Origin: Streptomyces sp. NRRL F-5126
Lineage (GTDB): Bacteria > Actinomycetota > Actinomycetes > Streptomycetales > Streptomycetaceae
Assembly: GCF_000721265.1 (NCBI RefSeq)
Contig: NZ_JOFZ01000019.1
Coordinates: forward strand, 1-16,836
DNA length: 16,836 bases
Direction of reading: 5' to 3'
This document shows positions 1 to 14,593 of the stretch, piece by piece; the stretch's first letter is position 1, and each line of letters begins with the position of its first letter. The notes under the pieces were generated by a model that was not told the DNA's origin, did no database searches, and saw only the letters and a list, made by a program, of their open reading frames with translations. Both the position numbers and the translations under genes were made by a program.

Positions 1-270
1 TCGCTGCGCGATGTGCAAGCGAAAACCCGCGCTCCGCGCGGGTGTTGCGCTCCCGCTCCGCGGGAGCGCTGGCGGGACGCTGTGCGTCCCGCTCATCAAG
101 CCCGCTGTGCGGGCTTGATGACGCTCCGTCCGCTGCGCTTCCGGAGCTGCGTGGCTTTCGCCACGTTGGCCCTGGGCTCCGCTTCGCTCCGCCCTGGGTC
201 GGCGGGTCCGCTGCGCTCCCCCGTCTCAAGGGCCCTTCCGGCTGCGCCTCCAGGACCCAGGGCCCGCTGA
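1..270. other. Streptomyces-type telomere of a linear replicon (outermost ~20 bases missing)
   Basis: A row of short GC-rich palindromes with 3-4 base loops, the hallmark of Streptomyces telomeres, whose 3' overhang folds into hairpins and is end-patched by the Tap/Tpg terminal-protein system. Seen directly: a truncated palindrome at 1-11 whose outer arm continues to 15 and lacks its partner; 22-46 (one mismatch); 47-69 (10-bp stem); 72-92 (9 bp); 93-121 (13 bp); 123-147 (6-bp outer stem, small inner hairpin); 150-165 (6 bp); 174-194 (imperfect). Order and spacing match the archetypal telomere as I remember it, in which the first palindrome and a few bases (about 20 nt) would precede base 1. 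Palindromic character fades beyond ~200, so the inner limit is approximate. Two loops (81-83, 106-108) are TGT. No tap or tpg gene lies in the window, so those functions must come from elsewhere in the genome. Confidence 0.9.
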
Positions 271-319
271 CGCGAGCCTGGCTGGCTACGAGGAGCGGGG
301 GGTGCTCGTTCGTGGCGGG

Positions 320-416
320 TTCTAGTGTGTTGCTGCCTCAGAGAGACGCAGCATGTATCATTGGCAGAAATATGGGACACCCCGCCAGTCGCTCGGGAAT
401 ATCCTAAGTTTCCGAG
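320..416 (+). promoter_or_regulatory. AT-richer leader between telomere and first genes; possible promoter region
   Basis: After the telomeric palindromes the base composition drops to a locally AT-richer stretch, notably around 353-375 and 398-415, unlike the surroundings. A small inverted repeat (GCTGC at 332-336, GCAGC at 348-352) lies at its start. It is the only plausible place upstream of the helicase operon for a promoter, but I see no convincing -35/-10 pair, so this is a positional suggestion only. Confidence 0.2.
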
Positions 417-791
417 TTGAGGCTGTTCGCGCTCCTGGAGGCGCAGGGCGTACCCGCGAGCGAGCGGACGACCTGGAGGCCGGGGCGGTCGCCGGGGCGC
501 AGTGCGAGGTGGTGGAGCTGGACGGCATGGTGCCGGCTTCTTGGGGTGCGCTGTGTTCGCGGACGGCTGGGACGAAGGCGTGATGGCGGTGAGCGAGGCG
601 CGGGGGCATCGCGGGCCGGGGATGGCCCCGGCTCGGCGGCTGAGCTGGCCGTACATTTCGCGGACGTGAGGCAGCGTGAACGGGCGTGCCTGGTGCGGCT
701 GGAGGGGTTCGTCCGGGAGTCCGTGCTGCTGCGTGCCCATTCGCACACCATGGCGCGGCGCCGGGTGCTGGGCGAGGCTGGCGGTCTGTGA
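417..791 (+). pseudogene. Small ORF or decayed gene upstream of the terminal helicase
   Basis: An open frame of 124 codons starts at a TTG without a clear ribosome-binding site and ends in a TGA that overlaps the GTG of the next ORF (GTGA at 788-791), an arrangement typical of translational coupling. Its last ~50 residues (an alpha-helical looking stretch with AELAVHFADVRQRERACL and a basic end) look like real protein. The middle does not: it is rich in Arg, Trp and Gly, while frame +2 around 455-560 and frame +1 around 535-625 read as more natural protein there. The simplest explanation is an old gene broken by one or two frameshifts. I do not recognise the family. It could also be a true short gene starting further downstream. 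Confidence 0.28.
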
Positions 792-1012
792 GCGGCGCGC
801 GGAGGGTGAACAGCGACGAGGACTGCATCCTCTGCGCGCTCGGTGTCGGGCACTACGACCTGGACGACCAGGCGCCCTTCAAGGACGGAAAGCCCGGCTG
901 GCACAGGGCGGGGGCGTCGATCTGGAACTGCTCGGGTGCGGTCTGCATTCCGCACGCGGCCATCGAAGGATCACAGAAATGGGAATCAGGGAGGGCTTGG
1001 AAATGCTTTTGA
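788..1012 (+). CDS. Small Cys-rich hypothetical protein, possible zinc-binding
   Basis: A 74-residue ORF starting at GTG 788, overlapping the preceding stop by GTGA and overlapping the helicase start (ATG 1003) by 10 bases, so it sits inside a tightly packed transcription unit. It contains C13-x2-C16 and then C48-x4-C53-x2-H56, a spacing compatible with one bound zinc ion; the stretch between is acidic and aromatic (HYDLDDQAPF). The residue mix is protein-like and clearly better than the other frames over 800-960. I do not recognise a family. It may be a small partner of the terminal helicase or a leftover coding segment. The GTG start is chosen for the coupling overlap; a GAGG at about 774-777 could serve as a weak ribosome-binding site. 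Confidence 0.42.
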   Translation: MSGARRVNSDEDCILCALGVGHYDLDDQAPFKDGKPGWHRAGASIWNCSGAVCIPHAAIEGSQKWESGRAWKCF

Positions 1013-3675
1013 TTCCGCTCAAGGAACACCAGGTCGACCAGAAATTGCGCTTTCGTAACTGGGTCGGATTTCCTGCAAGATCCTTTGTGTCTCCGGAGGG
1101 GGCCCGTGCCATGGGGGTGTCCGCGACCGGGTCCGGTAAGACGATCACCACCGCTGCGTGCGCTCTGGAGTACTTCCCGGAGGGGCGGATCCTCGTCATG
1201 GTGCCCACGCTGGACCTGGTCGTGCAGAGTGCCCAGTCCTGGCGGCGGGTCGGGCACCGGGCGCCGATGGTCGCGGTCTGCTCGGTGGACAGGGACGAGG
1301 TCCTGGAGCAGCTCGGAGTACGCACCACCACCAACCCCATCCAGCTCGCCCTGTGGGCGGGGTCCGGGCTGGTGGTCGTGTTCGCTACGTACGCCTCTCT
1401 CGTGGACCGTGAGGACCCCGCCGATGTCTCTGGGCGTGGGACTGTCCCGGGGCCGTTGGAATCGGCTCTGGCGGGCGGGGAGCGGCTGTACGGGCAGCGG
1501 ATGGCTCCGTTTGACCTGGCCATTCTGGACGAGGGGCACATGACCGCCGGGGACATGGGGCGGCCGTGGGCGGCGATCCATGACAACAGCCGGATCCCTG
1601 TCGACTTCCGGCTCTACCTGACCGCGACCCCGCGGATCCTCGCCGCGCCCCGGCCGCAACGGGGCCGGGACGGCCGGGAGCTGGTGATCGCGTCGATGGA
1701 GGGCGACTCCAGCACCTACGGCACCCGGATTTTTGATCTCGGTCTGGCAGAGGCGGTGGAACGCTCGATCCTTGCGGGGTTCGAGATCGACGTGCTCGAG
1801 ATCCGCGACCCGGACCCGGTCCTGGGCCTGTCCGAGGACGCCCTGCGTGGCCGGCGCATGGCCCTGCTCCAGGCGGCGCTGCTGGAGCACGCGGCGCAGC
1901 AGAATCTGCACACCACCATGGTGTTCCACCAGCGGGTCGAGGAAGCCGCAGCGTTCGCCGGGCAGATGCCGTCGACGGCCGCCGAGTTGTATGCCGCTGA
2001 GGCCTCCGCGGCGGCGCTGGCCGGTGCGGAGGCGCTGCCCGCATCGTCGATCGACGCTGAGCTGTACGAGCTGGAGGAGGGCCGTCACGTGCCCCCGGGC
2101 CGGGTGTGGGCGGACTGGCTGTGCGGGGACCATCCCATCGCGCACCGGCGTGCGGTGATCCATCGGTTCGCCAACGGCATCGACGCCCAGAATCGGCGGG
2201 TGCACCGGGCGTTCCTCTCCTCAGTACGCGCTCTCGGGGTCGGGGTCGACATCACCGGACTGCGCGGAGTCGAGGCCGTGTGCATCGTCGGCTCGCGCAG
2301 CTCCCAGGTCGACGTCGTCCAGAACATCGGCCGCGCCCTGCGCCCCAACCCCGACGGCCGGGCCAAGACCGCGCGGATCATCATCCCCGTCTTCCTCCAG
2401 CCCGGGGAGGACCCGAAAGACATGATCGCCTCGGCCAGCTACCAGCCCCTGGTCGACATCCTCCAAGCCCTGCGCTCACACTCGGAACACATGGTCGACC
2501 AGCTCGCCTCCCGCGCCCTGACCCGCGGCACCGAACGACGGCGTATCCACGTCCGCCCCTCCCCCGCCACCGCGGCCAGCCCGGAGAACAAGAACATGCC
2601 CGCGGAGGCTGGCGAGGCGCAGCAGGAGGTCGACCGGGTCACCTCCATCGTGGTCAACTTCGCCTCCCCCCGCGACGCCGCCGACATCGCCGCCCTAACC
2701 CGCTGCCGCGTCATCCGCCCTCAGTCCCTCGTCTGGCTCGAGGGCTACCAAGCCCTCGTCCGGTGGCGCACCGAGAACAAGGTCACCGGCCTTCACGCCG
2801 TCCCCTATGACGTCGAGACCGAAGTCGGGACGACGAAGGCGTTTCCGCTGGGGCGATGGGTGCATCAACAGCGCAAGGCGCTGCGCGCAGGCGAACTCGA
2901 CCCCCACCGCAAGACGCTGCTCGACGAGGCCGGGATGGTGTGGGAGCCGGGCGACGAAGCATGGGAGAAGAAGCTCGCCGCGCTGCGGTCCTACCGGCGG
3001 GCCACCGGGCACCTGGCACCCCGGCAGGACGCTGTCTGGGGCGAAGGCGAGGGGGACGGCGAGCAGCTGGCCATCGGACAGCTCCTCGCCAACCTCCGCC
3101 GCAGGGGCGGTCTCGGCAAGGACCCCGGGCGAGCGGCGCAACGCGCACAGCAGCTGGCGGCGATCGACCTGGACTGGAACTGCCCCTGGCCACTGGACTG
3201 GCAACGCCACTACAAGGTGCTCGCCGACCTCGTCGACGCCGACGGACACCTGCCCCACATCGATCCCGGCGTCACCTTCGACGGCGACGACATCGGACGA
3301 TGGCTCCAGCGACAAACCCAGCCGGGCACCTGGAAGCAGCTCACCGAGGAGCAGCAGCAGCGGCTGACCGCGCTGGGCGTACAACCTACTGAAGGCCGCT
3401 CCCACGCCCCGGTGGCTACGCGGTCGAGGAAGGGATCGGGCAAGGCTCAGCAGGCGTTCCAGCGGGGCCTGGCAGCTCTCGCACAGTGGGTGGACCAGGA
3501 AGGCGCAGGCCGGCCCGTACCCCGCGGCGCGGTCGTCGAGATCGAGGTCGACGGCCAGGAGGAGCCGGTGCCGGTGAAGCTCGGCGTATGGGTCTCCAAC
3601 ACCCGCGCGAGGCGAGACAAACTCACGGCAGAGCAACTGGGCGCGCTGCGGAAGGTGGGCATGGAATGGGCCTGA
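1003..3675 (+). CDS. Terminal DEAD/DEAH-box helicase with helicase-associated (HA) domains, TtrA-like
   Basis: Superfamily 2 helicase of 890 residues, the first long gene next to the telomere. Motif I is ATGSGKT (residues 41-47), motif II DEGH (176-179), motif III TAT (207-209), motif VI QNIGRALR (440-447). From about residue 600 to the end come repeated helicase-associated units, with FPLGRWVHQQRKAL near 613 and an AAIDLDWNCPWPLDWQRHY block further on. I chose ATG 1003 because GGGAGG lies 8 bases upstream; ATG 979 is a weaker alternative. Helicase-like ttrA genes close to Streptomyces telomeres are known and have been linked to conjugal transfer and telomere regions; the match to TtrA here is by position and architecture only. 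Enzymatically it should be an ATP-dependent nucleic-acid translocase; the substrate is unknown. A second, truncated copy starts at 14594, and its HA units resemble those in TniQ (11009-14542). Confidence 0.88.
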   Translation: MLLIPLKEHQVDQKLRFRNWVGFPARSFVSPEGARAMGVSATGSGKTITTAACALEYFPEGRILVMVPTLDLVVQSAQSWRRVGHRAPMVAVCSVDRDEVLEQLGVRTTTNPIQLALWAGSGLVVVFATYASLVDREDPADVSGRGTVPGPLESALAGGERLYGQRMAPFDLAILDEGHMTAGDMGRPWAAIHDNSRIPVDFRLYLTATPRILAAPRPQRGRDGRELVIASMEGDSSTYGTRIFDLGLAEAVERSILAGFEIDVLEIRDPDPVLGLSEDALRGRRMALLQAALLEHAAQQNLHTTMVFHQRVEEAAAFAGQMPSTAAELYAAEASAAALAGAEALPASSIDAELYELEEGRHVPPGRVWADWLCGDHPIAHRRAVIHRFANGIDAQNRRVHRAFLSSVRALGVGVDITGLRGVEAVCIVGSRSSQVDVVQNIGRALRPNPDGRAKTARIIIPVFLQPGEDPKDMIASASYQPLVDILQALRSHSEHMVDQLASRALTRGTERRRIHVRPSPATAASPENKNMPAEAGEAQQEVDRVTSIVVNFASPRDAADIAALTRCRVIRPQSLVWLEGYQALVRWRTENKVTGLHAVPYDVETEVGTTKAFPLGRWVHQQRKALRAGELDPHRKTLLDEAGMVWEPGDEAWEKKLAALRSYRRATGHLAPRQDAVWGEGEGDGEQLAIGQLLANLRRRGGLGKDPGRAAQRAQQLAAIDLDWNCPWPLDWQRHYKVLADLVDADGHLPHIDPGVTFDGDDIGRWLQRQTQPGTWKQLTEEQQQRLTALGVQPTEGRSHAPVATRSRKGSGKAQQAFQRGLAALAQWVDQEGAGRPVPRGAVVEIEVDGQEEPVPVKLGVWVSNTRARRDKLTAEQLGALRKVGMEWA

Positions 3676-3991
3676 CGGAGGTAGCCGCTGGGCCCTCATG
3701 CCCGTCGTAGCGCTGCCGCTCTTCCCTCAGCGCTGGGGCGGGCCTGCAGACGGGCCCTGCAGGGCCCGTCTGCCAGGGCAGCGTGGCCGGCCTCGATGGC
3801 CTCCGTCAGGTCTGGCCGCTCTCCGTTCGCCGGGTGGGCCATCCGGATGAGACCGCCGTCGTGCAGGTCAATCATCGCCTTATGGAGCCCGAACTGCTGG
3901 ACCGGTTGTCTCCTTCCACAGGGGCACCGCCGCCACACGCTGGCCAAGTGCCGTCGTCGGGCCATGGCGAGAGAGCACGCCGAATAGCGTG
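3676..3991. other. Poorly coding stretch between helicase and cargo genes
   Basis: 316 bases without a convincing gene. It holds the perfect palindrome at 3746-3773 and, on the minus strand, the reading frame listed separately (3696-4022). I found no transposon-like terminal sequence, tRNA-like structure or repeat linking it to the right end at 14593, although this is where a conventional left end next to the helicase might have been expected. Confidence 0.4.
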
Positions 3992-4022
3992 TCAGCCGGT
4001 CGGCTGTGCAGTCTCCTCCCAC
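3696..4022 (-). pseudogene. Possible small ORF or gene remnant downstream of the cargo gene
   Basis: A 108-codon minus-strand frame whose start lies inside the 3' end of the preceding minus-strand gene (31-base overlap). The central part, QQFGLHKAMIDLHDGGLIRM followed by an acidic stretch up to about residue 88, reads like genuine protein, but the first 35 residues are Arg/Cys-rich and the end runs through the perfect palindrome at 3746-3773, which looks like a transcription stop and not coding sequence. No ribosome-binding site is evident. A fragment of a former gene is the likeliest explanation; family unknown. Confidence 0.22.
3746..3773. terminator. Perfect 28-bp palindrome, probable intrinsic terminator after the helicase
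   Basis: Two 14-base arms (GCAGACGGGCCCTG at 3746-3759 and its exact reverse complement at 3760-3773) with no spacer, starting 70 bases after the helicase stop. In RNA it would fold into a long GC-rich hairpin with a short CUGCAG-derived loop. There is no T-run, as is common for actinobacterial terminators. Because it is symmetric it could also stop minus-strand transcription from the cargo gene at 3992-5236. A protein-binding site is possible. Confidence 0.55.
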
Positions 4023-5236
4023 ATTCTCAGAACGGGGGCGAGGGTGTGCTCAACCGCGTACTCGGCGTCTTGTGGATCAGAACAGGTCGTCTGCCGGGCA
4101 GGGCCGCGAGTAACCAGGGACATCTGTCCTGCCCGGCGGCCGTCACGCGTCGCGGCGTAAACGGTGAGCGCTTCCAGCCGGTCCAAGCGGTCACGCGGCG
4201 GGATGAGTACGGTGCCGAGTTCCTGCTCCGTGCGCGTGGGTTTGGCGAACCATGATTCCGAGGTCACGACGACGCCGTCAGCCTTCAGCGCGTTCACCTG
4301 GTTCGCGAGCTTCTCGAAGGAGAGAATCTTCGTGCCCTGGCTGTCGAAGTCGAGATGGCCGAATTGCACCATCGTTTCTCCCCTGTAGAGGAAGACGAAC
4401 ATCGTGTGGAAACCGTCCTTCTCCATCAGCCGTCGGGCGTTGGCCATGTGCCAGGGCACCGAAGCGATCGGATCCCCGGGATGCGGCTCGGGTTGCTGGC
4501 CGTAGCGTTCGATCGCCAGCCTGGTGCCGTCCTCGTCGCGCTCGATGGTCAGGTTGTATGACTCGATCTGGACGCCCCTGAGTACGTCGAAGTGGGCTTC
4601 CAGGTCATCCTTGGCAACCAGCATGCAGTGCGGCCTGGTTCCCGACGAACTGAGGTATGCCGTCACGCATTCCTCCTCACGTGCCGAAAGGTCGCACACC
4701 TGTACACCGGCTGCACGGTGTCCCTCGGCGAGCAGCGCGGCAAGCTGTGCGTACGCCTCCCCCGTCGCGTCCAGCAGCTCCCACTCAGGCAGCGCCGCGT
4801 CCACCCAGCGTCGTCGCACGGTCACAGTGCCGCCCGGCGGCCGGTACCGGCGGACGACATCGTCGAGGATTTCCTGGACTGACATCCGGGGCGGGAACTT
4901 CGCCGAGGCGCCCAGAACGCGCTGCAGCCAGTTCTGCTGCCAGACGATCTGCAGCTCGCTGTGCAGCTCCAGATCGGCTTCCTTGGTGATGCGGTTCCGG
5001 GACTTGACGACCCACCGCATGATCTCGCTGTTGCCGGACTGCTGTTGGAACCGGGGATACCACTGGTCGAAGCCCGCGAGCTCCTTCTTCTGCTTCTGCA
5101 GCAGCCATGTGACGTTCCGCAGGTTCGGGACCAGCGCGTTCAGCATGATCCTGAACCCGTGCGGATCAAAGTAGTCCTCGTGCAACCTGTGCCACTGCGC
5201 ATGGCCGTCCATCAGCCGCCGATGAGCACCTGGCAT
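3992..5236 (-). CDS. Conserved-looking hypothetical protein (cargo gene)
   Basis: A 414-residue protein read towards the telomere. I prefer the ATG at 5236 because AGGAG (5243-5247) lies 6 bases before it; the longer frame from ATG 5269 has no comparable site. The N-terminal half is helical and charged, with an RN-containing stretch (VVKSRNRITKEADLELHSE, about residues 76-94 from this start). That is faintly reminiscent of HEPN-type RNx4-6H signatures, but the expected histidine is absent at the usual place, so I do not assign that fold. The C-terminal half is mixed alpha/beta with no motif I recognise; there is no signal peptide or membrane segment. It diverges from the gene at 5447 across a shared ~210-base region, and both sit between the telomeric helicase and the transposition operon. 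That is the position of cargo in Tn7-like elements, which is often defensive, but function here is unknown. Confidence 0.72.
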   Translation of the reverse strand: MPGAHRRLMDGHAQWHRLHEDYFDPHGFRIMLNALVPNLRNVTWLLQKQKKELAGFDQWYPRFQQQSGNSEIMRWVVKSRNRITKEADLELHSELQIVWQQNWLQRVLGASAKFPPRMSVQEILDDVVRRYRPPGGTVTVRRRWVDAALPEWELLDATGEAYAQLAALLAEGHRAAGVQVCDLSAREEECVTAYLSSSGTRPHCMLVAKDDLEAHFDVLRGVQIESYNLTIERDEDGTRLAIERYGQQPEPHPGDPIASVPWHMANARRLMEKDGFHTMFVFLYRGETMVQFGHLDFDSQGTKILSFEKLANQVNALKADGVVVTSESWFAKPTRTEQELGTVLIPPRDRLDRLEALTVYAATRDGRRAGQMSLVTRGPARQTTCSDPQDAEYAVEHTLAPVLRMWEETAQPTG

Positions 5237-5446
5237 CGGGCACTCCTGCGCGATCTCTTCCCCGGTCATGCACCGATGTTAGGCGGAACACTTTCCTGAT
5301 ATGACTGCTTTTTTGCTACCCCTCAGGCAGGTGCACATCGGAGGCCCGGCCGTGCTGTGCGGTGGGGCAGCCAACCCTTGCCCCAGACCCACCCGGGCAC
5401 GACCGTTCTGAACATCGACTTCGACCCCCTGCGGAGAGCCACCCGG
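5237..5446. promoter_or_regulatory. Divergent intergenic region of the two cargo genes
   Basis: The gap between the divergently read genes must hold promoters for both. Its most AT-rich part is about 5276-5320, including GATATGACT (5298-5306) and a run of six T (5309-5314), unusual for this sequence. No clean -35/-10 pair could be placed. GGAGAG at 5433-5438 is the ribosome-binding site of the plus-strand gene; AGGAG at 5243-5247 (reading minus) is that of the minus-strand gene. Confidence 0.4.
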
Positions 5447-6571
5447 ATGACGAACGACCAGCAGCCCGCGGAGTCAAGCGATCTGCAGGAGCGCGAGGCC
5501 CGGTTCGACTACGGGTTCCGGATGAAATGCGATTGCGGTGAACTGTCCGATCTCTCCGCCGCCGGTTACATCGAGCGCGAGTCACTCGACGCCCGGATTG
5601 CGTGCAGCCACTGCGGTACCTCGATCCATTACGGGCGCGCCGTTGCCGGGATCCGTGACCGACATGATCCCGCCCTCGACAACTCTGCGGTCGCCCGGTT
5701 CGCCTGGTATCACTCCAGTACATCGCCCGACTGGCCGTCGCCCGACTACACCAGCAGGTTCGCTGCACGGGTCCGGGAAGCTGAGCTGCGCCTCGGACAC
5801 CGTTACGGAACCCACATCGAGCGCGCCAAGGCTCTCCACGTCGGCACATACGAGGCCGCCGTAGAGAACATGCTGCGCCGGATGCGCGATCAGGACGATG
5901 CCACGTCCTCGTTCTACCTGTACCGAGTCTCCCTCGGTATCAGCGCCGGGCGCATCAACGACGGCTACCGGGAGGCGAACAACGAGCCGGCTTCGCAGAT
6001 CAGTCTGGACGAACTACAGGCTCTTGGGCTCGATGCCCTCCGCTACCTCAACACCCACGAAGCCATCGGCTCGCTGTCGCTCGCCATCCACCCGCGAGTA
6101 ATCCGTTCGCTCCAGGTGGTTCCGCTTCCGGTCACCGACCTGGCAGCACCGCAACCACCGGCGCTGTCCCAGCGGCTCCGCGAACTGGAGGCTGAGCTCG
6201 ACAGTCTGCAAGCGGCAGCACGCGAGCAGCTACAGGTCAGGGACAGCCCCCTGCAAGCTCTACGACGCAGGATGTCTGAACGTACCGGTGTCACACCGTC
6301 GACGACGGCCGTCGAGGGGGAATGGGCCCTGTGGGAGCAGGTCGTCGCCGAGCTCTCCGCGCACCACTTGCACGGCATCTCACCGCTCGTTCAGCGGGAC
6401 TTCTGCCACGCCCTTGAAGACTGGCGGCGCAGTAGGGAAGCCGCCATGGACGAGTTCGCAAGCTTCTTCGCTGCACTCGCTGCGACCTTGACCCGGCCCT
6501 CTGACGTGATGCAGCGCCTGGCCCAGGGGACGGGACCGGCTAACGGAAGCAGGGGCTCGACGAAGCTGTAA
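5447..6571 (+). CDS. Hypothetical protein with N-terminal zinc ribbon (cargo gene); possible ADP-ribosyltransferase-like core
   Basis: A 374-residue protein. Start ATG 5447 is set by GGAGAG 8 bases upstream; the frame is open further 5' but without a ribosome-binding site. Near the N-terminus, MKCDCGEL and, about 25 residues later, IACSHCGTSIHYG form a CxC...CxxC zinc-ribbon pattern. A conserved-looking core follows: ARFAWYHSSTSPDW, ALHVGTYEAAVENMLRRM, FYLYRVSL and YLNTHEAIGSLSLAI. The order His (WYH), Tyr (YLYRV) and a late Glu (THE) resembles the H-Y-E layout of some ADP-ribosyltransferases. This is suggestive only, and I cannot exclude chance. A coiled-coil stretch follows (LSQRLRELEAELDSLQAA, about residues 215-235). 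No signal peptide or membrane segment. It is divergent from the 3992-5236 gene, which may be a functional partner, and is followed by 230 bases before the transposition operon. Confidence 0.7.
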   Translation: MTNDQQPAESSDLQEREARFDYGFRMKCDCGELSDLSAAGYIERESLDARIACSHCGTSIHYGRAVAGIRDRHDPALDNSAVARFAWYHSSTSPDWPSPDYTSRFAARVREAELRLGHRYGTHIERAKALHVGTYEAAVENMLRRMRDQDDATSSFYLYRVSLGISAGRINDGYREANNEPASQISLDELQALGLDALRYLNTHEAIGSLSLAIHPRVIRSLQVVPLPVTDLAAPQPPALSQRLRELEAELDSLQAAAREQLQVRDSPLQALRRRMSERTGVTPSTTAVEGEWALWEQVVAELSAHHLHGISPLVQRDFCHALEDWRRSREAAMDEFASFFAALAATLTRPSDVMQRLAQGTGPANGSRGSTKL

Positions 6572-6801
6572 CGCGGGACGTGAGGTCACAGTCGACGAGC
6601 CACCGCACGCACCACCCGGGTGGCCACCGCCCGCACCCGGCCGCCAGCGGCGAACGGCGTGCGTGGGGCAAGGGTCTGCACTGACACCGCCGTAGGATGC
6701 GGGCCGTCATCAACAACACTGGGCGAACCAGGACCGCCCGGGTGGCGGAAATTGGCCCACTCAGGTCGTACGCGCGAGCCGGGCACGCTTGACTGGAGCG
6801 C
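6572..6801 (+). promoter_or_regulatory. Intergenic region before the transposition operon
   Basis: 230 bases without a gene, the only space for a promoter of the tns operon. It contains a 12-bp perfect palindrome (CCACCCGGGTGG, 6613-6624) and an inverted repeat with arms CCGCC/GGCGG around 6734-6748. These share CCCGGGTGGC as a direct repeat (6616-6625 and 6737-6746, 121 bases apart), which could be an operator pair. GCGAACGGCG at 6651-6660 equals 14581-14590 near the right end, in the same orientation. No clear -35/-10 boxes were found. Confidence 0.35.
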
Positions 6802-7776
6802 ATGATCGACAGGCACCACCTGCCGGCATCCGGCGGCCCCGGTTTACCCCCGCCACCACGGCAGATCGCGGGAGCGCACAGCGCTGCGGAGGCCGGTCCT
6901 CGGGCATCTGGTCCGGCGGGCGGAGGATGCGACCCGCTGCCGCTCGCGGCGGTCCGTGAGCCGGTTCGCGCGCCCGGTCGCTCTGCCGGGACGTCGGACG
7001 GGATGCCGGACGATGCTGAGGAGGCCGTGGAGTTACCGGTCGGGATCGGCGACGGGCTGATAGCTCGGTTCATCGACCAGGCGGGGACCGAGCGGCGGAT
7101 GCCGTGGGCGGAGGCCGCACGTGGTGTCTGCTGGGAGGAGTGCGGCCCGGTGCGCCGTTTCCCGGTGCGGCATGGCAAGCGGATGGCGCCGGGATGGTGG
7201 TGGTCGGCGACCGACGGGCGGCTGGTGCACTATGCGTCCGGGGTGATGCGGACCCAGGTGATGCTGCTGGACCATGACCCTCGCGTGGTGGCCATTGTGT
7301 GCCGCCCGGTGGAACTCACCTGGCGTGGGCGAGACGGAGGCTGGGTGCGGCACGCACCGCATCTGATGGCCCGGCTCGCGGACGGCAGGGATCTGCTGGC
7401 GGACTGCGCCGGGCGAGGGGACATCTCGCCGCGCCTGGCCCGTCGGGCGACGGTGATGGAGGCCGCAGCCGCAGCGGTGGGCTGGCGGTATCGGGTCCTG
7501 CGGCCTCCGGATCCGGTTCTGGCGGCCAATCTGCGCTGGCTGGCCGGGTACCGGCACCCCCACTACAAGGGCGGAAAACTGGCCAGGCGCGCGGCCGAGG
7601 CATTCCGGCTGCCGCGGCCCCTGATCGAGGGGGTGTATGAACTTGGCGACCCGATCCAGTTCTTCCCGGTGGTCTTCCACGCACTGTGGCACGGCAACTT
7701 GTCGGCTCCGCTCGGCGTGCCCCTGCACGAGCGGGTGACCGTGACGGCGGTTGCCCGAGGGCGGGGGCAGGGATGA
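6802..7776 (+). CDS. tnsA: TnsA-like heteromeric transposase endonuclease subunit, active site not recognisable
   Basis: First gene of the transposition operon, 324 residues from ATG 6802; ATG 7003 (residue 68) is a possible start because the first ~67 residues are Pro/Gly/Ala-rich and unlike the rest. The GGAG before 6802 is only 3 bases away, which is close. The block GKRMAPGWWWSATDGRLVHY (about 125-144), MLLDHDPRVVAIVCRPVELTW, HAPHLMARLADG (184-195) and LRWLAGYRHPHY follow the layout of actinobacterial TnsA-like proteins encoded beside DDE transposases. TnsA cuts the 5' strands at Tn7 ends with a Glu/Asp/Lys active site. Where I expect YES..LER there is YASGVMRT (144-151), where HAPD is expected there is HAPH (184-187), and LLADCAG (198-204) follows. 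It may therefore be non-catalytic or use other residues. Its stop overlaps the tnsB start (ATGA). Family assignment is by motif and position. Confidence 0.72.
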   Translation: MIDRHHLPASGGPGLPPPPRQIAGAHSAAEAGPRASGPAGGGCDPLPLAAVREPVRAPGRSAGTSDGMPDDAEEAVELPVGIGDGLIARFIDQAGTERRMPWAEAARGVCWEECGPVRRFPVRHGKRMAPGWWWSATDGRLVHYASGVMRTQVMLLDHDPRVVAIVCRPVELTWRGRDGGWVRHAPHLMARLADGRDLLADCAGRGDISPRLARRATVMEAAAAAVGWRYRVLRPPDPVLAANLRWLAGYRHPHYKGGKLARRAAEAFRLPRPLIEGVYELGDPIQFFPVVFHALWHGNLSAPLGVPLHERVTVTAVARGRGQG

Positions 7777-9392
7777 GCGGCACGGTACTGGAGCCCGGAG
7801 CTCAGGTGCGCTTCGCGAAGCGGACCTGGACGGTCGTCATGCTGGAAGGCCTGTCCGTAAAGCTGATCGACGCGGACAACTCCGTCGCCACGGTCCTGGT
7901 GAACTACCTCTTCGCCGACCCCGACTTCGAAGTGGTGGGCGCCCCGCGGCGCAGCGTGCCGCCGTTCGGGCTCCTGGAGGAACTGCCGGAGCACGTGCGC
8001 GAGCAGGCGTACGCCTGGGAGCGGCATGTGCGTGAGGTGGAGACCGGGTGCCCCGTTCCGGGTCAGGACCAGGTGCCGCGGGCCGAGTTCGATCCGGCCA
8101 TGCGCACCATGGCGGAGCGGGAGGAGGCCAAGGCCGCCGAGCTGACGGCGGCCGGGCAGACGGCCAGTGCGGTGACGGTGCGGCGGATGCGGGCTCGCTA
8201 CCGGGAGTACGGCCTGTGGGGGCTGGTGGACGGCCGGGCCGCCCGCCGCCGCTCACCTGTGGGACGCGCCGACGAGCGGGTGATCGCCGCGATCGAGCAA
8301 GCACTACAGGCGCAGCGGGAGCGGTCGACCGGGACGCTGAGCCGGCTGCGGCGCACCGTCGGCTGGATCCTGGAGGACACCCACGGCGTGGGGGTGGTGA
8401 AGGTACCGCCTGCCTCGACGTTCAACCGGCTGGTGCACGCCCTCGCCGACCGCCAGGGACTGCTGGGGACGGCGGCGCAGCGGCGCCGTCATTCCTCACG
8501 GCCGGCTCCGCCGTTCACCCCGACGGTGGCGTTGCGGCCCGGTGGGCTGGTGATGCTGGACAGCACGCCTTTGGACGTGATGGTGGTTCTGGCCGACGGG
8601 GTGGTGGGTAAGGCCGAGTTGACGATCGCGCTGGACGTGGCGACGCGCAGTATCTGTGCGACCGTGCTGCGGCCGATGGGCACAGGGTCGGTGGACGCGG
8701 CGGTTCTGCTGGCGCAGATGGTGACGCCCATGCGGATGCGCCCTGGGTGGGAAGAGGCGCTGGCGATGTCGCGGTCGGTCATCCCCTACGAGCGGCTGGT
8801 GTCTCTGGACGCGCGGCTGGAGGGTGCGGCGGCTCGTCCGGTGATCATGCCGGAGACGGTGGTCGTCGACCAGGGCCGGGTGTTCGTCTCCGCCTCGTTC
8901 ACCGCGGCGTGCGACAGTCTGGGGGTGTCGGTGCAGCCGGCGCCTCCGGCCAACGGTCCGGCCAAGGGAAATGTCGAGCGGATGTTCCGCACCATCGGCG
9001 ACCGGTTCTCCCAGTACGTGGCCGGTTACACCGGCTCCGACGTCACTCAGCGCGGCTCTCACGTCGAGGACGAGGCGTGCTGGACGCTGCCGCAGGTGCA
9101 GGATCTGCTGGACGAGTGGCTGGTCGCGGACTGGCAGCACCGTCGGCACGCGTCCCTGCGTCATCCTCTGGCCCCGAAGCTCGCGGTGTCGCCGAACGAG
9201 ATGTGGGCCGCGCTGGTCGGCGTGACCGGCTATGTGCCGGTGCTGCTCAGCGAAGACGACTATGTCGAGCTCATGCCGGTCAAGCGGGTGGGCATCAACG
9301 ATTACGGCATCCGCTTCGACTACCGCACCTACGACCACGAGGTCCTCAACCCGCACCGCGGGTTCCAGTCGACGGCCCCGGACGGGATGTGA
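7773..9392 (+). CDS. tnsB: TnsB/TniA-type DDE transposase, main part (ends at an in-frame TGA)
   Basis: 539 residues from ATG 7773, which overlaps the tnsA stop. Catalytic triad visible: D263 in VMLDST, D366 in VVVDQGR, and E402 in KGNVERM, with exactly 35 residues between the second Asp and the Glu. An N-terminal helix-turn-helix region (AVTVRRMRARYREYGLWGL and the following Arg-rich stretch) should bind repeats in the transposon end. The Mu-type C-terminal barrel begins around YVELMPVKRVGINDYGIRFD. The enzyme cleaves 3' ends and joins them to the target. The frame stops at TGA 9390-9392, in the middle of what is normally a continuous C-terminal region: the same frame goes on with EVHHNPYDPQQIWVRLPGGW, typical of this family just after the barrel. 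A Trp codon (TGG) changed to TGA would explain it. See the next entry. Confidence 0.9.
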   Translation: MSGTVLEPGAQVRFAKRTWTVVMLEGLSVKLIDADNSVATVLVNYLFADPDFEVVGAPRRSVPPFGLLEELPEHVREQAYAWERHVREVETGCPVPGQDQVPRAEFDPAMRTMAEREEAKAAELTAAGQTASAVTVRRMRARYREYGLWGLVDGRAARRRSPVGRADERVIAAIEQALQAQRERSTGTLSRLRRTVGWILEDTHGVGVVKVPPASTFNRLVHALADRQGLLGTAAQRRRHSSRPAPPFTPTVALRPGGLVMLDSTPLDVMVVLADGVVGKAELTIALDVATRSICATVLRPMGTGSVDAAVLLAQMVTPMRMRPGWEEALAMSRSVIPYERLVSLDARLEGAAARPVIMPETVVVDQGRVFVSASFTAACDSLGVSVQPAPPANGPAKGNVERMFRTIGDRFSQYVAGYTGSDVTQRGSHVEDEACWTLPQVQDLLDEWLVADWQHRRHASLRHPLAPKLAVSPNEMWAALVGVTGYVPVLLSEDDYVELMPVKRVGINDYGIRFDYRTYDHEVLNPHRGFQSTAPDGM

Positions 9393-9395
9393 GAG

Positions 9396-9941
9396 GTGCA
9401 CCACAACCCTTATGACCCCCAGCAGATCTGGGTGCGGCTGCCTGGCGGCTGGGAGGAGGTGCCCTGGATCCACAAGGAGCGGGTAAGCCTGCCCTTCACC
9501 GACTTCACCTGGCGGCACATCCGCGCGACCGTCGAGCGCCACGGCGACCGCGACGAGCACGAGCAACAGCTCGCCCAGGCCCTGGACCGCCTCCTGCGGC
9601 GGGCCGGTAACGGGGAAGGCACCCGCCGCGAGCGGACCGTCGCGACACGTGCCAGCGCCGCAGCCTCCCTCGCCGGGCCCGCCCCAAACCAGCAGGAGCC
9701 GCCCGACCCCCTCACCGCCCCGACCCTCTCCTACGGCCTGGTCGGCGCCTTCACCCCAGTAAGCCTGGATGAGCCCGACGACGAAGAGTTCGAGGACGGC
9801 TGGGACGAGGACGAAGACCCGCTCGGCACATCAGACGATGCCAGCGGCGCCCCCGCCGGAGACGAACAGCCATCCGGGCGGGCCGCAGTCCCCCGCCCGT
9901 CGCGGATCTACGACGCCCGCCAGGAGGCAACCCAGTGGTAG
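9396..9941 (+). CDS. C-terminal part of TnsB/TniA, separated by an in-frame stop
   Basis: 181 codons in exactly the same frame as the preceding transposase, beginning at a GTG only 3 bases after its TGA. The start HHNPYDPQQIWVRLPGGWEE continues the C-terminal barrel of the transposase. It is followed by a charged helical stretch (about 60 residues) and a very acidic tail (EPDDEEFEDGWDEDED). In Tn7 and Mu the C-terminal tail of the transposase contacts the ATPase partner (TnsC/MuB), so this piece probably carries that contact. Three explanations remain: a recent nonsense mutation (nonfunctional element), a sequence error, or translation by readthrough or reinitiation at the nearby GTG to make a two-part protein. 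There is no good ribosome-binding site of its own. Its stop overlaps the tnsC start by three bases (GTGGTAG at 9935-9941). Confidence 0.75.
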   Translation: MHHNPYDPQQIWVRLPGGWEEVPWIHKERVSLPFTDFTWRHIRATVERHGDRDEHEQQLAQALDRLLRRAGNGEGTRRERTVATRASAAASLAGPAPNQQEPPDPLTAPTLSYGLVGAFTPVSLDEPDDEEFEDGWDEDEDPLGTSDDASGAPAGDEQPSGRAAVPRPSRIYDARQEATQW

Positions 9942-10993
9942 CAGTCCCCGAGGCCGGTCCCGTCCCGGACGAGGAGCAGCAGATCGCGGCGTATGCGCCG
10001 CCGACCACACGGGAGGGCTGGCAGCAGTTCGTCGGCACTCCCCCACTGCAGCCCCCGCCCACCGGGGACGAGGACTGGTCGCTGGAGGAACGCCTGGACT
10101 ACCACTCACGGTTCGTCGTCCTGACCACCCCGGCGATGCAGCGCATCTCGCTGTCGGTACGGCGGCTGATGCTCCTCAACCGCCGCCAGCAGGGCACCGC
10201 GCGCCGCGGGCTGATCGTGTCCGGGCCGCCCACCACCGGCAAGACCACCACCCTGCTGGAGATGGGCCGCACCTTCGAGCTCGCCGAGCAGCGCCGCCAC
10301 CCCGGCCGCACCGACCGGCTGCCCGTGGTGTTCCTGGCGGTGCCGCCCGCCTCCACTCCCAAGATGCTGGTATCGGAGTTCGCCCGGTTCCTCGGCATCC
10401 CCATCGCGGTCCGGATGAACCAGGCGCAGATCACCGACGCCGTCTGCCACCTGCTGTGCCAGCTGGGCACCGCACTGGTCCTCGTCGACGACGTCCACCT
10501 GCTCGACACCCGCACCCGCGCCGGCGCGGAGACCTCCGACCAAATGAAGCACCTCGGCGAGAGGATCCCGGCGACGTTCGTCTACGCAGGCGTCGACGTC
10601 GAGGCCTCCCCCCTCCTCAACGGGCCCCGCGGCGCACAGTTGGCAGGCCGCTTCACCCTGGTCCGCAACACCGCCCTGTCCCGCGGCACCGCCGAACAGC
10701 GCGCGACCTGGCTGGACCTGGTCACCGCCATGGAAAACGCCCTGCACCTGCGCCACCACACTGGGGGCACTCTGGCCCGGCACGCCGACTACCTCCACCA
10801 GCGCACCGGCGGAGTCATGGGAAGCCTCTCCCACCTCATCCGTGAAGCCGCTCTCACCGCCCTCCTCGACGGCAGCGAAAAGATCACCAAACGGCTCCTG
10901 GCCGGCATCCAGCTCGACATCCGCGCGGAGCAGCAAGCCCGCCCGTCCCGAAAACGCCTCCCGCGCCCCCGCAACAACGGCACTGAATCCTGA
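9935..10993 (+). CDS. tnsC: TnsC/TniB-type AAA+ ATPase, transposition regulator
   Basis: 352 residues from GTG 9935, preceded by an excellent ribosome-binding site (AGGAGG at 9922-9927, spacer 7) and overlapping the end of the upstream frame. Walker A is GPPTTGKTT (residues 97-105); Walker B is LVLVDDVHLLD with D185-D186. The C-terminal region has the HHTGG...RTGGVMGSLSHLIREAA block seen in TniB proteins, followed by a basic tail. In Tn7-like systems this ATPase bridges the target selector (TniQ/TnsD) and the transposase and provides target immunity. It is followed after 15 bases by tniQ, so it belongs to one operon with its neighbours. No defects are visible. Confidence 0.92.
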   Translation: MVAVPEAGPVPDEEQQIAAYAPPTTREGWQQFVGTPPLQPPPTGDEDWSLEERLDYHSRFVVLTTPAMQRISLSVRRLMLLNRRQQGTARRGLIVSGPPTTGKTTTLLEMGRTFELAEQRRHPGRTDRLPVVFLAVPPASTPKMLVSEFARFLGIPIAVRMNQAQITDAVCHLLCQLGTALVLVDDVHLLDTRTRAGAETSDQMKHLGERIPATFVYAGVDVEASPLLNGPRGAQLAGRFTLVRNTALSRGTAEQRATWLDLVTAMENALHLRHHTGGTLARHADYLHQRTGGVMGSLSHLIREAALTALLDGSEKITKRLLAGIQLDIRAEQQARPSRKRLPRPRNNGTES

Positions 10994-11008
10994 CGAGGCG
11001 GACCAGCG

Positions 11009-14000
11009 GTGAAGACCACCAGCCCTTTGATGGAACCTGCCGTCAGGGATCATTCGCAGCCACCACAGCGCGAGCAGAACGAACTACCCCTGCACAGACC
11101 GCCTTCGGGCGCGGTGCGTGTCGCTCCGCTGAACGGCGAGACGACGCTGTCGTTCATGAGCAGAGTCGCCTCCCGGTACAAACTCACGGCCAAAGAACTC
11201 ATTGGCGCGCTCGTGGACGTGGGACGGCGGCCCAATCTGTTCACGGTGCGGCCCGACGGAGAAGTGGTCTTCAACGCCGAGGCCCGGGCGGTGGTCGCCG
11301 CTTTCTGCCGCATGCCCGAAGAACACCTGCACCGTGCCCTGCCGGCCTGGGGCAGGGACGTCCCTTCGAGCAGGCTCGGCAGCGGGCCGGCCGCCTGGGT
11401 CCGCACCGCAGCCACGATCCCGCCGACCGGCCCCGGATGCCGGGCCTGCACCGCGACCGCCACACGAGGCCAGGAAGAAGCACGCCGCTACCTGCTGCCG
11501 CACGGCCGGGTATGCGTCAAGCACCAGTGCTGGATGCTGGAAGCACCCGTCGTCGACGGGGCAGCGGCCGTCCCCGGGCAGCTGGACCTGCGGTATGTGC
11601 CGCAGATCGGGGCGGCCCAGCGCCGTCACGTACGGCTGCTGCGGCGCTCTACGCACGCCGGCGAAGCGTTCACCGTGGCGCAGGCAATCATGGCTTCGTG
11701 GTGGGACGAGCCCTGGCCGGAAGAGATCCTCTGGCCCGATCGGCTGCGGCTGATGGCCCCCGGCAACGACCTCGTTTGGCGTGCCGCGGCGCGGGATGCG
11801 GTGACCTATCCCGAAGCCGTCACGCTGTCCGCGGCCCTCGCCGACCCGAGCCTGCAGCAGCGGCTACTCGATGACGCGGGACGGCATCAGCCGCACGCGC
11901 TCGCCGATGTCCCCGGCCTCGTGGACGAACTGGCTCGGCATCTTGAGCGGCCATGGGTCGCCGGTCGCCTCAGCGCCCTGACGACAGGCCCGCTGAACGC
12001 CTGGGTACGCGCCTGCGTACGCACCAGAGCCGGGCACAAGCCGAAGACACGCAGCATGTGGCACGTCTCCCCACCCCACCGGCCCGCACCGATCACCCGG
12101 CTCCTGGCCGAAACCCGGCCCATCGACGAAGCGCCCGGAAAAACGGAGTCGGCGGGGGCGCCGGCCCCAGACGTGGCCGAGACCGCCAAGGGGTTCGCGC
12201 GCGGCCTGCGCCACGCCCGCACCTACGCCACCGAACACGGCCACCTCTGCATTCCTTACCGGTACGAAGAGGACGGGTTCCAACTCGGCCTGTGGCTGTC
12301 CAACCAGCGCGCAGCAGGCCCTCAGCTCTCCCCCGGGCGCAGCCAGGCCCTGGCCGCTCTTGACCCGTGGTGGAATCCTGCGTGGAGCACGCTGTGGCAG
12401 CGCATCTACCTGCGCGCACGACGGCTGCTGGACTCAGGCACCGACATCAGACCCGAGCAGGGCTTCCCGGGCACCAGCGAGAATCTCGGCACCTGGCTGT
12501 ACCGGCAGTGCCAGGTCTACAGCAGCCTCCACCCCCAGCAACAGAAGTTGCTGACTCAGATCGGCATCACGCCTGAGCGGGCATGTGAGGCCAAGCCCCG
12601 GCGTAAGAACATCAAAGCGGTCCAGCACACCGCGCTGGACCACGCCCGCGCCTACGTCGCCCGGCACGGCCACCTGTGCGCCCCCACCTCTGCCTGCCAG
12701 GACAGCTTCCCGGTCGGCAAGTGGCTGCACAGTCAGCGGGTACGCGCCCGGCGCGGCCGGCTCGACCCAGCACTGAAGCAGACGCTGAGCGACATCGACC
12801 CCTGGTGGAACCCGCCATGGCCCACCGACTGGCAGCGTGAACACCACATCGCCCACGCCGCTGTCACTGCCGGCGCATTCCTTGATCCCGGAACCGGATT
12901 CCGTAACGTCGACGACCGCACCGGGCAGTGGCTGTACGCCCAGTGCATCGGCTACGACGCGCTCCAGCCTGGCCAGCAAGAACTCCTGGCCCTGATCGGC
13001 ATCACCGAACCTGTGGCGGGCAGCGCCGTGCCCGACCCGGCCACCCGGCATCCCTCTATGGAGACTGGGCTGCACTATGCCCGGGCCTGGGCAGCCGAAC
13101 ACGGAACCCTCGACCTCCCCCGCACCTGCCGCCACGATGGCTTCCCCCTCGGCCGCTGGCTCGCCAGGCAACGCCGCCAGGCCAACCTCCACCGCGACCT
13201 CTTCGACACCCCCTGGCCACACGAGGAACACCTCGCCCGCATCGACCCGTACTGGAACCCGCCCTGGGGCATGAAGTGGCAACGCCGCTACCAGGCCGCC
13301 CGCGCACAACTCACTCCCGGACAAGACCTCGCTCCGCCCAAAGGCTTCCCCGGGACACCAGACTGGACCGGGCAGTGGCTGTACGACCAGTGCACCCACT
13401 ATCCCGAACTCCACCCACACCAGCAGGAGCTCCTCGCCGCCCTCGGCCTCACCTCCGAAGGCGCCCGAACCGCTCGGCCCCGCCGTATCGCCCAGGCCGC
13501 GACCTTCGCCGCCGGCCTCGTCCACGCAACGGCATGGGCTGACCAGCACGGCCACCTCACAGTCGCTGGAGACACCTGCCACGACGGCTACCCGCTGGGC
13601 AAATGGCTCGCCCACCAGCGCAAACGCGCCGCCCGCGGACGGCTCCCGGAAGACCGCGCACACGCCCTCGCCGCTCTCGACCCGTGGTGGAACCCGTCCT
13701 GGAACACACGCTGGCAACAGTCCCTGTGCACCGCGCGCGACCACACCACCGGCAAGGCCCTGGGCACCACGGCCGACCTCGACGCCCTACCCACAGTCAC
13801 CTCGAAATGGCTGTTCACCCAATGCGCCAGCTACGACAGCCTCCAACCCGGGCAACGCCAACTGCTGGCCGGCATCGGCCTCCCCGCCGAACGCGCCCAC
13901 GCCCTGGCCCCACCCCCGAAACCTGCCCAACCGTCCCACCCGGCGCGCCCCCGTCTGAAGAACCCACCCTCGTCCCTCGCGGCCGGCCTCCCCTACGCAC

Positions 14001-14542
14001 AGGCCTGGGCCGACCTTCACGGCAACCTCACCTCGGCCAGCTATCGCACCGAACACGAAGGCTTCCCCCTCGGATGGTGGCTGTACAAACAACGCCGAGC
14101 CGCCCACGACCACCTGAAACGAACCGGGAACCCGTGGCTCCATGATGAGCAACTCGCCGCCCTCGACCCGTGGTGGAACCCACCCTGGCGAGCCACCTGG
14201 AACCACAGCTGGCACCGAGCCCACGCCCACCACAACACCGGACAGCCCTTCCCCGGCCAGACCACCAAATGGATCCGCACCCAGCAACGCACCTGGGACC
14301 AGCTCCACCCCCACCAACAACACCTGATGACCACCCTCGGCATCCACGGCCCCACACCCCTGCACCGCTACAACAGCCACCCAGTGAAACCGACCAGCCA
14401 ACCACCCGAACTGATCAACACAAACGAGACCACCCCAGACCTCGAAACCCGCAGCTCAAAGCCCCACTCAGCCCAGACCTGCAAGCAACACCAGCCACCA
14501 CGCCAGCACACAACACACCGTCAGCCCCAACCAGCCAACTGA
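11009..14542 (+). CDS. tniQ: TniQ-family target selector fused to five helicase-associated (HA) modules
   Basis: 1177 residues from GTG 11009 (GAGGCGG about 10 bases upstream). Residues ~38-340 are a TniQ domain: VAPLNGETTLSFMSRVASRY near the start and a zinc-ribbon signature with C144-x2-C147 and C169-x2-H172. Residues ~394-1115 are five tandem modules of ~125-140 residues. Each has a GLxHAxxWAxxHGHL-type start, a FPLGxWLxxQR block, LDPWWNPPWxxxWQ, a GxWLYxQC block and LHPxQQxLLxxIGI. These match HA units of the terminal helicases in this window, for example IDLDWNCPWPLDWQRHY. The last ~60 residues are low-complexity Thr/Pro/Gln/His, and their codons overlap the transposon right end. TniQ/TnsD proteins choose the target and recruit TnsC. 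The HA array is probably the DNA- or partner-recognition part, which fits insertion into an HA-helicase gene, but that is inference. Ordinary TniQ proteins are mostly 300-700 residues. Confidence 0.9.
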   Translation: MKTTSPLMEPAVRDHSQPPQREQNELPLHRPPSGAVRVAPLNGETTLSFMSRVASRYKLTAKELIGALVDVGRRPNLFTVRPDGEVVFNAEARAVVAAFCRMPEEHLHRALPAWGRDVPSSRLGSGPAAWVRTAATIPPTGPGCRACTATATRGQEEARRYLLPHGRVCVKHQCWMLEAPVVDGAAAVPGQLDLRYVPQIGAAQRRHVRLLRRSTHAGEAFTVAQAIMASWWDEPWPEEILWPDRLRLMAPGNDLVWRAAARDAVTYPEAVTLSAALADPSLQQRLLDDAGRHQPHALADVPGLVDELARHLERPWVAGRLSALTTGPLNAWVRACVRTRAGHKPKTRSMWHVSPPHRPAPITRLLAETRPIDEAPGKTESAGAPAPDVAETAKGFARGLRHARTYATEHGHLCIPYRYEEDGFQLGLWLSNQRAAGPQLSPGRSQALAALDPWWNPAWSTLWQRIYLRARRLLDSGTDIRPEQGFPGTSENLGTWLYRQCQVYSSLHPQQQKLLTQIGITPERACEAKPRRKNIKAVQHTALDHARAYVARHGHLCAPTSACQDSFPVGKWLHSQRVRARRGRLDPALKQTLSDIDPWWNPPWPTDWQREHHIAHAAVTAGAFLDPGTGFRNVDDRTGQWLYAQCIGYDALQPGQQELLALIGITEPVAGSAVPDPATRHPSMETGLHYARAWAAEHGTLDLPRTCRHDGFPLGRWLARQRRQANLHRDLFDTPWPHEEHLARIDPYWNPPWGMKWQRRYQAARAQLTPGQDLAPPKGFPGTPDWTGQWLYDQCTHYPELHPHQQELLAALGLTSEGARTARPRRIAQAATFAAGLVHATAWADQHGHLTVAGDTCHDGYPLGKWLAHQRKRAARGRLPEDRAHALAALDPWWNPSWNTRWQQSLCTARDHTTGKALGTTADLDALPTVTSKWLFTQCASYDSLQPGQRQLLAGIGLPAERAHALAPPPKPAQPSHPARPRLKNPPSSLAAGLPYAQAWADLHGNLTSASYRTEHEGFPLGWWLYKQRRAAHDHLKRTGNPWLHDEQLAALDPWWNPPWRATWNHSWHRAHAHHNTGQPFPGQTTKWIRTQQRTWDQLHPHQQHLMTTLGIHGPTPLHRYNSHPVKPTSQPPELINTNETTPDLETRSSKPHSAQTCKQHQPPRQHTTHRQPQPAN
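12187..14355 (+). repeat. Five tandem HA-module repeats inside tniQ
   Basis: Five protein-level repeats starting near 12187, 12619, 13058, 13499 and 13978 (about 375-440 bases each), every one carrying the WWNP (once YWNP) core: about 12364, 12800, 13246, 13680 and 14168. DNA identity among copies is only partial, so they are old duplications kept by selection and not a recent slippage array. Each module seems to contain two HA units. Confidence 0.85.
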
Positions 14543-14593
14543 TCCCCCCAGCTCAACACACCAGACACCGATCAGAACAAGCGAACGGCGACA
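14405..14593 (+). other. Transposon right end with candidate TnsB-binding repeats
   Basis: The end reads ...GCGAACGGCGACA (to 14593), i.e. TGTCGCCGTTCGC when read inward from the terminus, the TGT/ACA form of Tn7-like ends. Related 15-mers occur at 14413-14427 (GATCAACACAAACGA), 14551-14565 (GCTCAACACACCAGA) and 14570-14584 (GATCAGAACAAGCGA). The first and third agree at 12 of 15 positions and the first two at 11 of 15, as expected for transposase-binding sites. The composition turns A/C-rich here, unlike the flanks. Immediately outside, CGCGACCC (14594-14601) matches the helicase coding sequence at 1804-1811. The exact last base is inferred from that junction. Confidence 0.65.

Follow-up and report, generated by a model that had tools for sequence, protein, structure and literature searches.

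The Tn7 transposon combines tnsABC with tnsD and has its attachment site, attTn7, at glmS; the DNA bound by TnsD adjoins the right end of the element. In 2025, telomeric transposons were reported from Streptomyces and cyanobacteria (Hsieh et al., Science 2025, eadp1973). Those of linear Streptomyces replicons are said to carry Tn7-like genes and one transposon end, with the telomere as the second boundary, and the two ends used in transposition are said to be made by bridged telomeres. Two papers explain telomere exchange in Streptomyces by recombination: in the accessible part of PMC7205883, telomere replacement is ascribed to recombination and break-induced replication, and the string 'transpos' is absent from the main text as available there, and PMC8743542, in its accessible part, explains telomere exchange by recombination. 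The same part of PMC8743542 describes TtrA terminal helicases, which are read inward beside archetypal telomeres.

Here we analyse a stretch of 16,836 bp (the window), which is the entire contig 19 of the draft genome of Streptomyces sp. NRRL F-5126 (7.18 Mb, 167 contigs). The window is very probably occupied by a Tn7-like telomeric transposon, delimited by a transposon end at position 14593 and by the telomere at base 1, which is likely to have replaced a former replicon end through insertion into a helicase gene. The first-pass annotation had read the DNA from the telomere to the single end as a mobile unit, and our analysis supports this reading, with qualifications.

The locus resembles Tn7 in its tnsA-tnsB-tnsC-tniQ operon, its TGT...ACA end and its fixed site in a conserved gene. 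It differs in having one end, and in that the target gene is destroyed and replaced, whereas in Tn7 it is left intact. In addition, the conserved site DNA lies outboard of the insertion in the family of the window but beside the right end in Tn7. The single end, the telomere boundary, the Tn7-like genes and the location on a linear Streptomyces replicon are shared with the reported telomeric transposons, and the element belongs to this already reported kind. A TniQ with five HA units, repeated homing to one helicase codon and a replacement helicase are seen in the window family and may set it apart from the elements reported in 2025. This homing of TniQ-HA to a terminal helicase may be a variant of telomeric transposons. 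The arrangement was not described in the literature searched, where coverage of subscription papers was poor, and neither TniQ with 'helicase associated' nor Tn7-like elements on linear chromosomes were found in that literature, which included few subscription papers.

Organization of the locus

The features of the window are collected in Table 1. Since the contig stops at 16836, DNA inboard of the helicase remnant is out of view.

Table 1. Coordinates of the features in the window and of the short TniQ genes in related stretches
Feature	Coordinates	Strand	Remarks
Archetypal Streptomyces telomere, outer element boundary	1..400	n/a	Palindromes 25-165; ~7-20 terminal bases missing
Terminal (TtrA-like) helicase, 898 aa, 4 HA domains	979..3675	+	Open; sole complete one found in the assembly
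Uninterrupted landing-site copy within the carried helicase	1780..1815	+	Codons FEIDVLEI/RDP; insertion point 1803/1804
Cargo, 425 aa, function not assigned	3992..5269	-	Relatives carry PF26900 (precomputed)
Cargo, 404 aa, no family	5357..6571	+	Function not assigned
tnsA, TnsA-like endonuclease	6802..7776	+	NF033179
tnsB first part, DDE transposase	7773..9392	+	Ended by in-frame stop 9390-9392
tnsB C-terminal part, same frame	9393..9941	+	ORF of 181 aa from GTG 9396
tnsC, TniB-type AAA ATPase	9935..10993	+	TniB match
tniQ extended by a fused array of five HA repeats, each ~145 aa	11009..14542	+	1177 aa
Single transposon end, inner boundary	14434..14593	+	Conserved 160-bp end region closing with GCGACA
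Target: 3' part of second terminal helicase, from codon RDP	14594..16594	+	Lacks its 5' part and the former telomere
Second short TniQ without HA	G151L 45755-46681; G172L 25835-26794; G326L 4596-5555; L005 1-312; G096R 7302-8258		

The outer boundary of the element is a telomere. Five hairpins lie within bases 25-165, the summed stem length reaches 46 in the first 250 bases against 19 at most in 124 other stretches of the window, and the telomere folds as single-stranded DNA far more stably than shuffled sequences (z = -9.7). Bases 1-400 match 164 plasmid records; among the 40 matches listed, 37 come to within 25 bp of the end of a record, another stops at 127 bp and two are internal. Hairpins, fold and record-end matches together confirm the telomere palindromes noted at first pass. 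The plasmid alignments place the true end roughly 7-20 bp outside base 1, which falls within the archetypal telomere; one related contig (L008) ends 12 bp past the base matching base 1.

The terminal helicase beside the telomere is intact, as had been proposed, with an open reading frame and four HA domains; its homologues in L006, L008 and L011 are 89-92% identical. The 13 HA domains found in the assembly are all on the window contig. Both helicases of the window fit the description of TtrA in the accessible part of PMC8743542, where, unlike here, TtrA is not linked to a transposon. Neither cargo protein belongs to a defence family in PADLOC. No cas family, and hence none of the cas genes of a CAST, was detected among the nine main proteins with Pfam and NCBIfam, and the weak Cas-type PADLOC matches of the helicase correspond to its helicase domains.

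All genes of the proposed tnsABC-tniQ operon were recovered: the TnsA endonuclease (NF033179), the DDE transposase TnsB (rve/IS481-type) and the AAA+ protein TnsC (TniB) are present together with TniQ. The tnsB gene, however, is interrupted by an in-frame stop. At this position a sense codon is present in nine of nine relatives compared, one of which (L006) has a one-base deletion of its own just upstream. The window's copy of tnsB is not intact and, because of this stop, may be defective; re-initiation of the C-terminal part at the GTG that soon follows is conceivable.

The TniQ protein of the window matches PF06527 with an E-value of 1.5e-4, under the curated cut-off, which its whole-length relatives exceed, and we assign it to the TniQ/TnsD target selectors. 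With the TniQ half as query, an HA domain (precomputed annotation) was present in 59 of the 59 proteins found, scoring having been limited to candidates with the most shared words. Judging by these matches, the TniQ-HA fusion is not confined to the strain of the window. None of the solved structures resembles it by sequence. Databases label such proteins 'helicase associated domain-containing protein', a name that hides them. HA units 2-5 fall into two types, in a comparison for which the broken TniQ rows of L008 and L012 were not fully usable. The TniQ of the window looks chimaeric: its N-terminal part and first HA unit resemble those of L005, L007 and G151, and its units 2-5 those of L009, L011, G165 and G058. 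Five of the stretches searched also carry a short second TniQ without HA outboard of tnsA (Table 1), possibly serving a second target pathway.

A single transposon end

The last bases of the element are ...GCGAACGGCGACA, at 14593. On the minus strand, TGTCGCCGTTCGC (14581-14593) has one exact occurrence, and its 14 matches with three mismatches or fewer are at chance level; an end model is therefore a stronger test than the short sequence. Two such models, of 160 bp and 62 bp, were built from the aligned ends of 13 elements and used to scan both strands of 27 stretches, including the window, of up to 66 kb with filters off. Matches were obtained in 21 of the 27, all oriented inward and all at the inner boundary except in G169, where tns genes are not nearby. 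No inverted partner end was detected at E<=1 with either model in any of the 27 stretches, window included. This agrees with the initial claim of one ACA-type end and no left end, also for the interval 3676-6801, where a matching left end would have contradicted it. Instead of the two inverted ends of Tn7-like elements the window has one end only, and it offers no second flank on which their 5-bp target duplication could show.

A search of 392 genomes with a short end pattern gave matches in 31, and for many of these a tnsB search of the same set revealed no tns genes nearby. By itself the short pattern is therefore unspecific, and G169 was left out of the junction count given below. A lone copy of the transposon end (82%) was also seen at 20001-20150 of L050, midway along a linear plasmid from strain WZ-12, with many IS around it and no tns genes in the annotation.

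Two-ended cousins exist in G025 and G311, with a tnsB ~52% identical to that of the window and ends that, like that of the window, start with TGTC. Unlike the window, these elements have two inverted ends TGTCCTGTCGCA (in full TGTCCTGTCGCA...TGCGACAGGACA); they are found as identical copies of 5-6 kb at differing places, internal in chromosomes, and each copy is flanked by its own 5-bp target duplication. Some members of the wider TnsB family have therefore not lost the second end. The existence of such relatives in Streptomyces lends some substance to a history in which a two-ended Tn7-like element hit the helicase gene and subsequently lost its outer part, left end included, through terminal deletion followed by re-acquisition of a telomere. 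We consider this history very unlikely, since a left end is found in none of the 27 stretches, the telomere at base 1 lies on the outer side of the element in G117, G165, G094, L010 and the window alike, and the G117 block described below, found on three ends, moved recently as it is now built.

The insertion site in the terminal helicase gene

Three helicase alleles that are uninterrupted across the site, all on linear plasmids, align with the window from exactly base 14594 and are 87% identical to it; L101 and L103 are complete genes, and L102 is damaged further upstream. The second helicase does begin exactly where the element stops, as had been claimed, and these alleles, located near linear-plasmid ends, are relatives with a helicase intact at the same codon, as sought in the proposed check. 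The N-terminal part of L101 was used to search the 7.18 Mb assembly for the missing 5' part; the sole match was the helicase carried by the element, in agreement with the absence of the 5' part of the disrupted gene inferred at first pass.

A junction between two terminal helicases invites the suspicion that two telomeric repeats were misassembled, the more so in a draft of 167 contigs and on a contig that ends in a repeat-rich helicase. Such an artefact is extremely improbable: the junction codon recurs in independently sequenced strains, the end sequence is conserved, and complete genomes and plasmids have the same architecture.

We compared 15 junctions, those of the 13 elements used for the end models plus L010 and L012, leaving out G169, G151R and G197R (duplicates at the other chromosome end), and the distant L047-L049. 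Terminal helicase genes contain 11 of the 15. Seven of the 15 (window, L008, L009, L007, L051, G192 and L012) lie within 2 bp of one helicase codon, which we call site A; they share this codon though their helicases are of two kinds, dissimilar in DNA. The other helicase junctions lie further downstream (L010), in the last codons (G165) or in inverted helicases (L011, G151), and four junctions (G197, G058, G096 and L005) are outside helicase genes by the queries used. Two further candidates for site-A cuts, the remnants beside the left ends of L007 and L047, were rejected, since the first is truncated by an insertion sequence and the second by the record end.

The site-A remnants do not form one group. 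A tree of six of them with six uninterrupted alleles requires at least five label changes, three of which are forced by well-supported branches; such a change could be either a gain or a loss, and a loss would require a cut gene to have been restored. A tree with a single change was found in none of 200 bootstrap trees. Uninterrupted alleles near linear-plasmid ends are available for four target lineages, and the best plasmid matches start at the first base of the remnant in S. avermitilis SAP1 (for L008), pSMg1-3 (for L009) and an NBC_00637 plasmid (for L007).

In fixed register, DNA agreement between the two helicase kinds is 55% from -60 to -30, 60% from -30 to 0 and 70% from 0 to +9. Inboard it drops to 33% (+30 to +60) and then to 31%, random codon-registered pairs giving 32% (21 pairs), and the two kinds place their next conserved downstream motif about seven codons apart in spacing. 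This outboard conservation, combined with the variable downstream spacing, points to DNA at the cut or outboard of it, where sequence is lost on insertion, as the likely determinant of the site; conservation at the protein level could also produce this pattern. The idea that the HA array decides the insertion site was discarded as a simple rule: both HA types occur at site A, and one type occurs at several sites.

Remnants of helicases are also seen elsewhere in the collection. In L009, another helicase fragment (7466-9141) adjoins tnsA on its outboard side; GCGACA stands some tens of bases ahead of the fragment, which is possibly the product of a further telomere replacement. The plasmid end of L013 holds one whole and two partial terminal helicases (1102-3777, 4614-5645 and 24030-24860); the same 40 kb is identical on the chromosome of that strain.

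Terminal location and movement of related blocks

Relatives of the element are concentrated at replicon ends. Among the best 40 of 387 plasmid records with tnsB, 35 have a length of 100 kb or more; in 34 of these 35 the distance from tnsB to the record end is no more than 30 kb (5.6 expected), and in 33 of the 34 tnsB reads inward. In genomes, the 16 matches of at least 60% identity on 12 looked-up contigs of more than 100 kb all lie no further than 50 kb from an end of the contig, whereas four looked-up matches below 50% (G158, G080, G007, G049) are hundreds of kb or more from the ends. In L012, tnsB is 94% identical and lies ~42 kb from the start of a record annotated as a circular plasmid, with no telomere recognised in the first 32 kb; in L009 the left contig end is 33 kb further out. 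The expectation that the other boundary would always be a telomere holds in part: terminal position is near-general among the records and contigs compared, but an archetypal telomere was seen at the outer end of just six of the 27 stretches (window, G165R, both G094 ends, L010 and L046). Eight other stretches that start at a contig or record end gave no archetypal telomere with the same query, so that either their ends are incomplete or they belong to another class. In G165, G172 and G326, comparison of the first 40-60 kb of both chromosome ends showed no inverted repeat, and in G117 the right chromosome end shares 150 bp (87%) with the left and no more.

Block movement is seen in G117, where a block of 6,599 bp at the left end of the chromosome recurs at both ends of the plasmid (99.97% and 99.96%). 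It runs from base 1 of the telomere to the transposon end, after which the sequences diverge into two inner flanks; besides the telomere it carries tnsA, tnsB, tnsC, a tniQ without HA and one more gene, and no helicase. On all three ends it extends to ...GATCAGCGACA. The three copies close with ...TTAACTGATCAGCGACA, which is followed by CCGCGAAG on the chromosome and by GGCGTCAC on the plasmid. Such identity on three ends indicates a recent move of the block in its present form. An uninterrupted relative of the chromosomal flank was not found in 100 genomes. In G096, two contigs end in copies of a 17.9-kb block (99.84%) that belongs to a cousin family, and the contigs diverge after ...CGCCACA. 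One copy interrupts a window-family tniQ in the half that encodes HA, and the transposon end of this earlier element survives further inward; this arrangement is the record of two successive replacements.

For the siblings G117 and G096, the claim that the block moves as a unit is borne out, although no intermediate was seen. The subfamily to which the window belongs yielded no comparable pair, and the window's copy is known from one replicon end. The helicase, which had been counted as part of the unit, is present in the window but is not obligatory, being absent from the G117 block. The question of whether the operon moves without telomere and helicase has a divided answer: L006 lacks the telomere of the window and G117 the helicase, but all three G117 copies keep their telomere. 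L006 corresponds to 641-11064 of the window at 95%, but 2.9 kb of other DNA takes the place of the window's telomere. Telomere and transposase are therefore not locked together, and the telomere-side sequence is exchangeable.

This difference in outer sequence is also what one would expect if homologous or break-induced recombination between linear replicons had brought in a foreign end with a transposon relic, the transposase not having moved the telomere. Recombination has been proposed for telomere turnover in Streptomyces in the accessible parts of PMC7205883 and PMC8743542, and in G094 the left ends of chromosome and plasmid do not differ anywhere in the 40 kb compared; this identity reaches well past any transposon end and is the result of recombination or copying. 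As an explanation of the window we regard recombination as improbable, because divergence in G117 and G096 falls exactly at the transposon end, target homology in the window resumes exactly at 14594, and the seven site-A junctions hit one codon in helicases that are unlike in DNA.

A model for telomere replacement

Sequence comparison establishes the single end, the telomere boundary, the interruption of the helicase gene at one fixed codon and the presence of sibling blocks on several replicon ends. We propose that the telomeric transposon of the window would operate as follows. TnsA and TnsB would cut and join the inner end, by analogy with Tn7, and the second end for strand transfer might be supplied by a second copy through bridged telomeres, as was reportedly suggested in 2025. 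The resident telomere and the 5' part of the helicase gene would be discarded together on an acentric fragment. The HA-bearing TniQ would likely read the helicase-gene DNA outboard of the insertion point. The carried helicase would stand in for the broken one and would at the same time give the next element an uninterrupted copy of the same site (Table 1).

A wider and more tentative proposal, which we find possible without favouring it, is that each telomere carries the landing site of the next, that TniQ-HA reads the side that is discarded, and that replicon ends are repeatedly overwritten, leaving stacked remnants, so that much of telomere turnover would be transposition.

The TniQ-HA fusion ties the targeting of the transposon to the terminal helicase itself. 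Blocks whose boundaries lie exactly at transposon ends represent a sequence-precise route by which a chromosome can gain the end of a plasmid, and transposition is a potential way for bacteria to swap chromosome ends. Transposition of telomeres would account for chromosome ends without terminal inverted repeats, and it would provide testable rules for where the next telomere would land and which side would be read.
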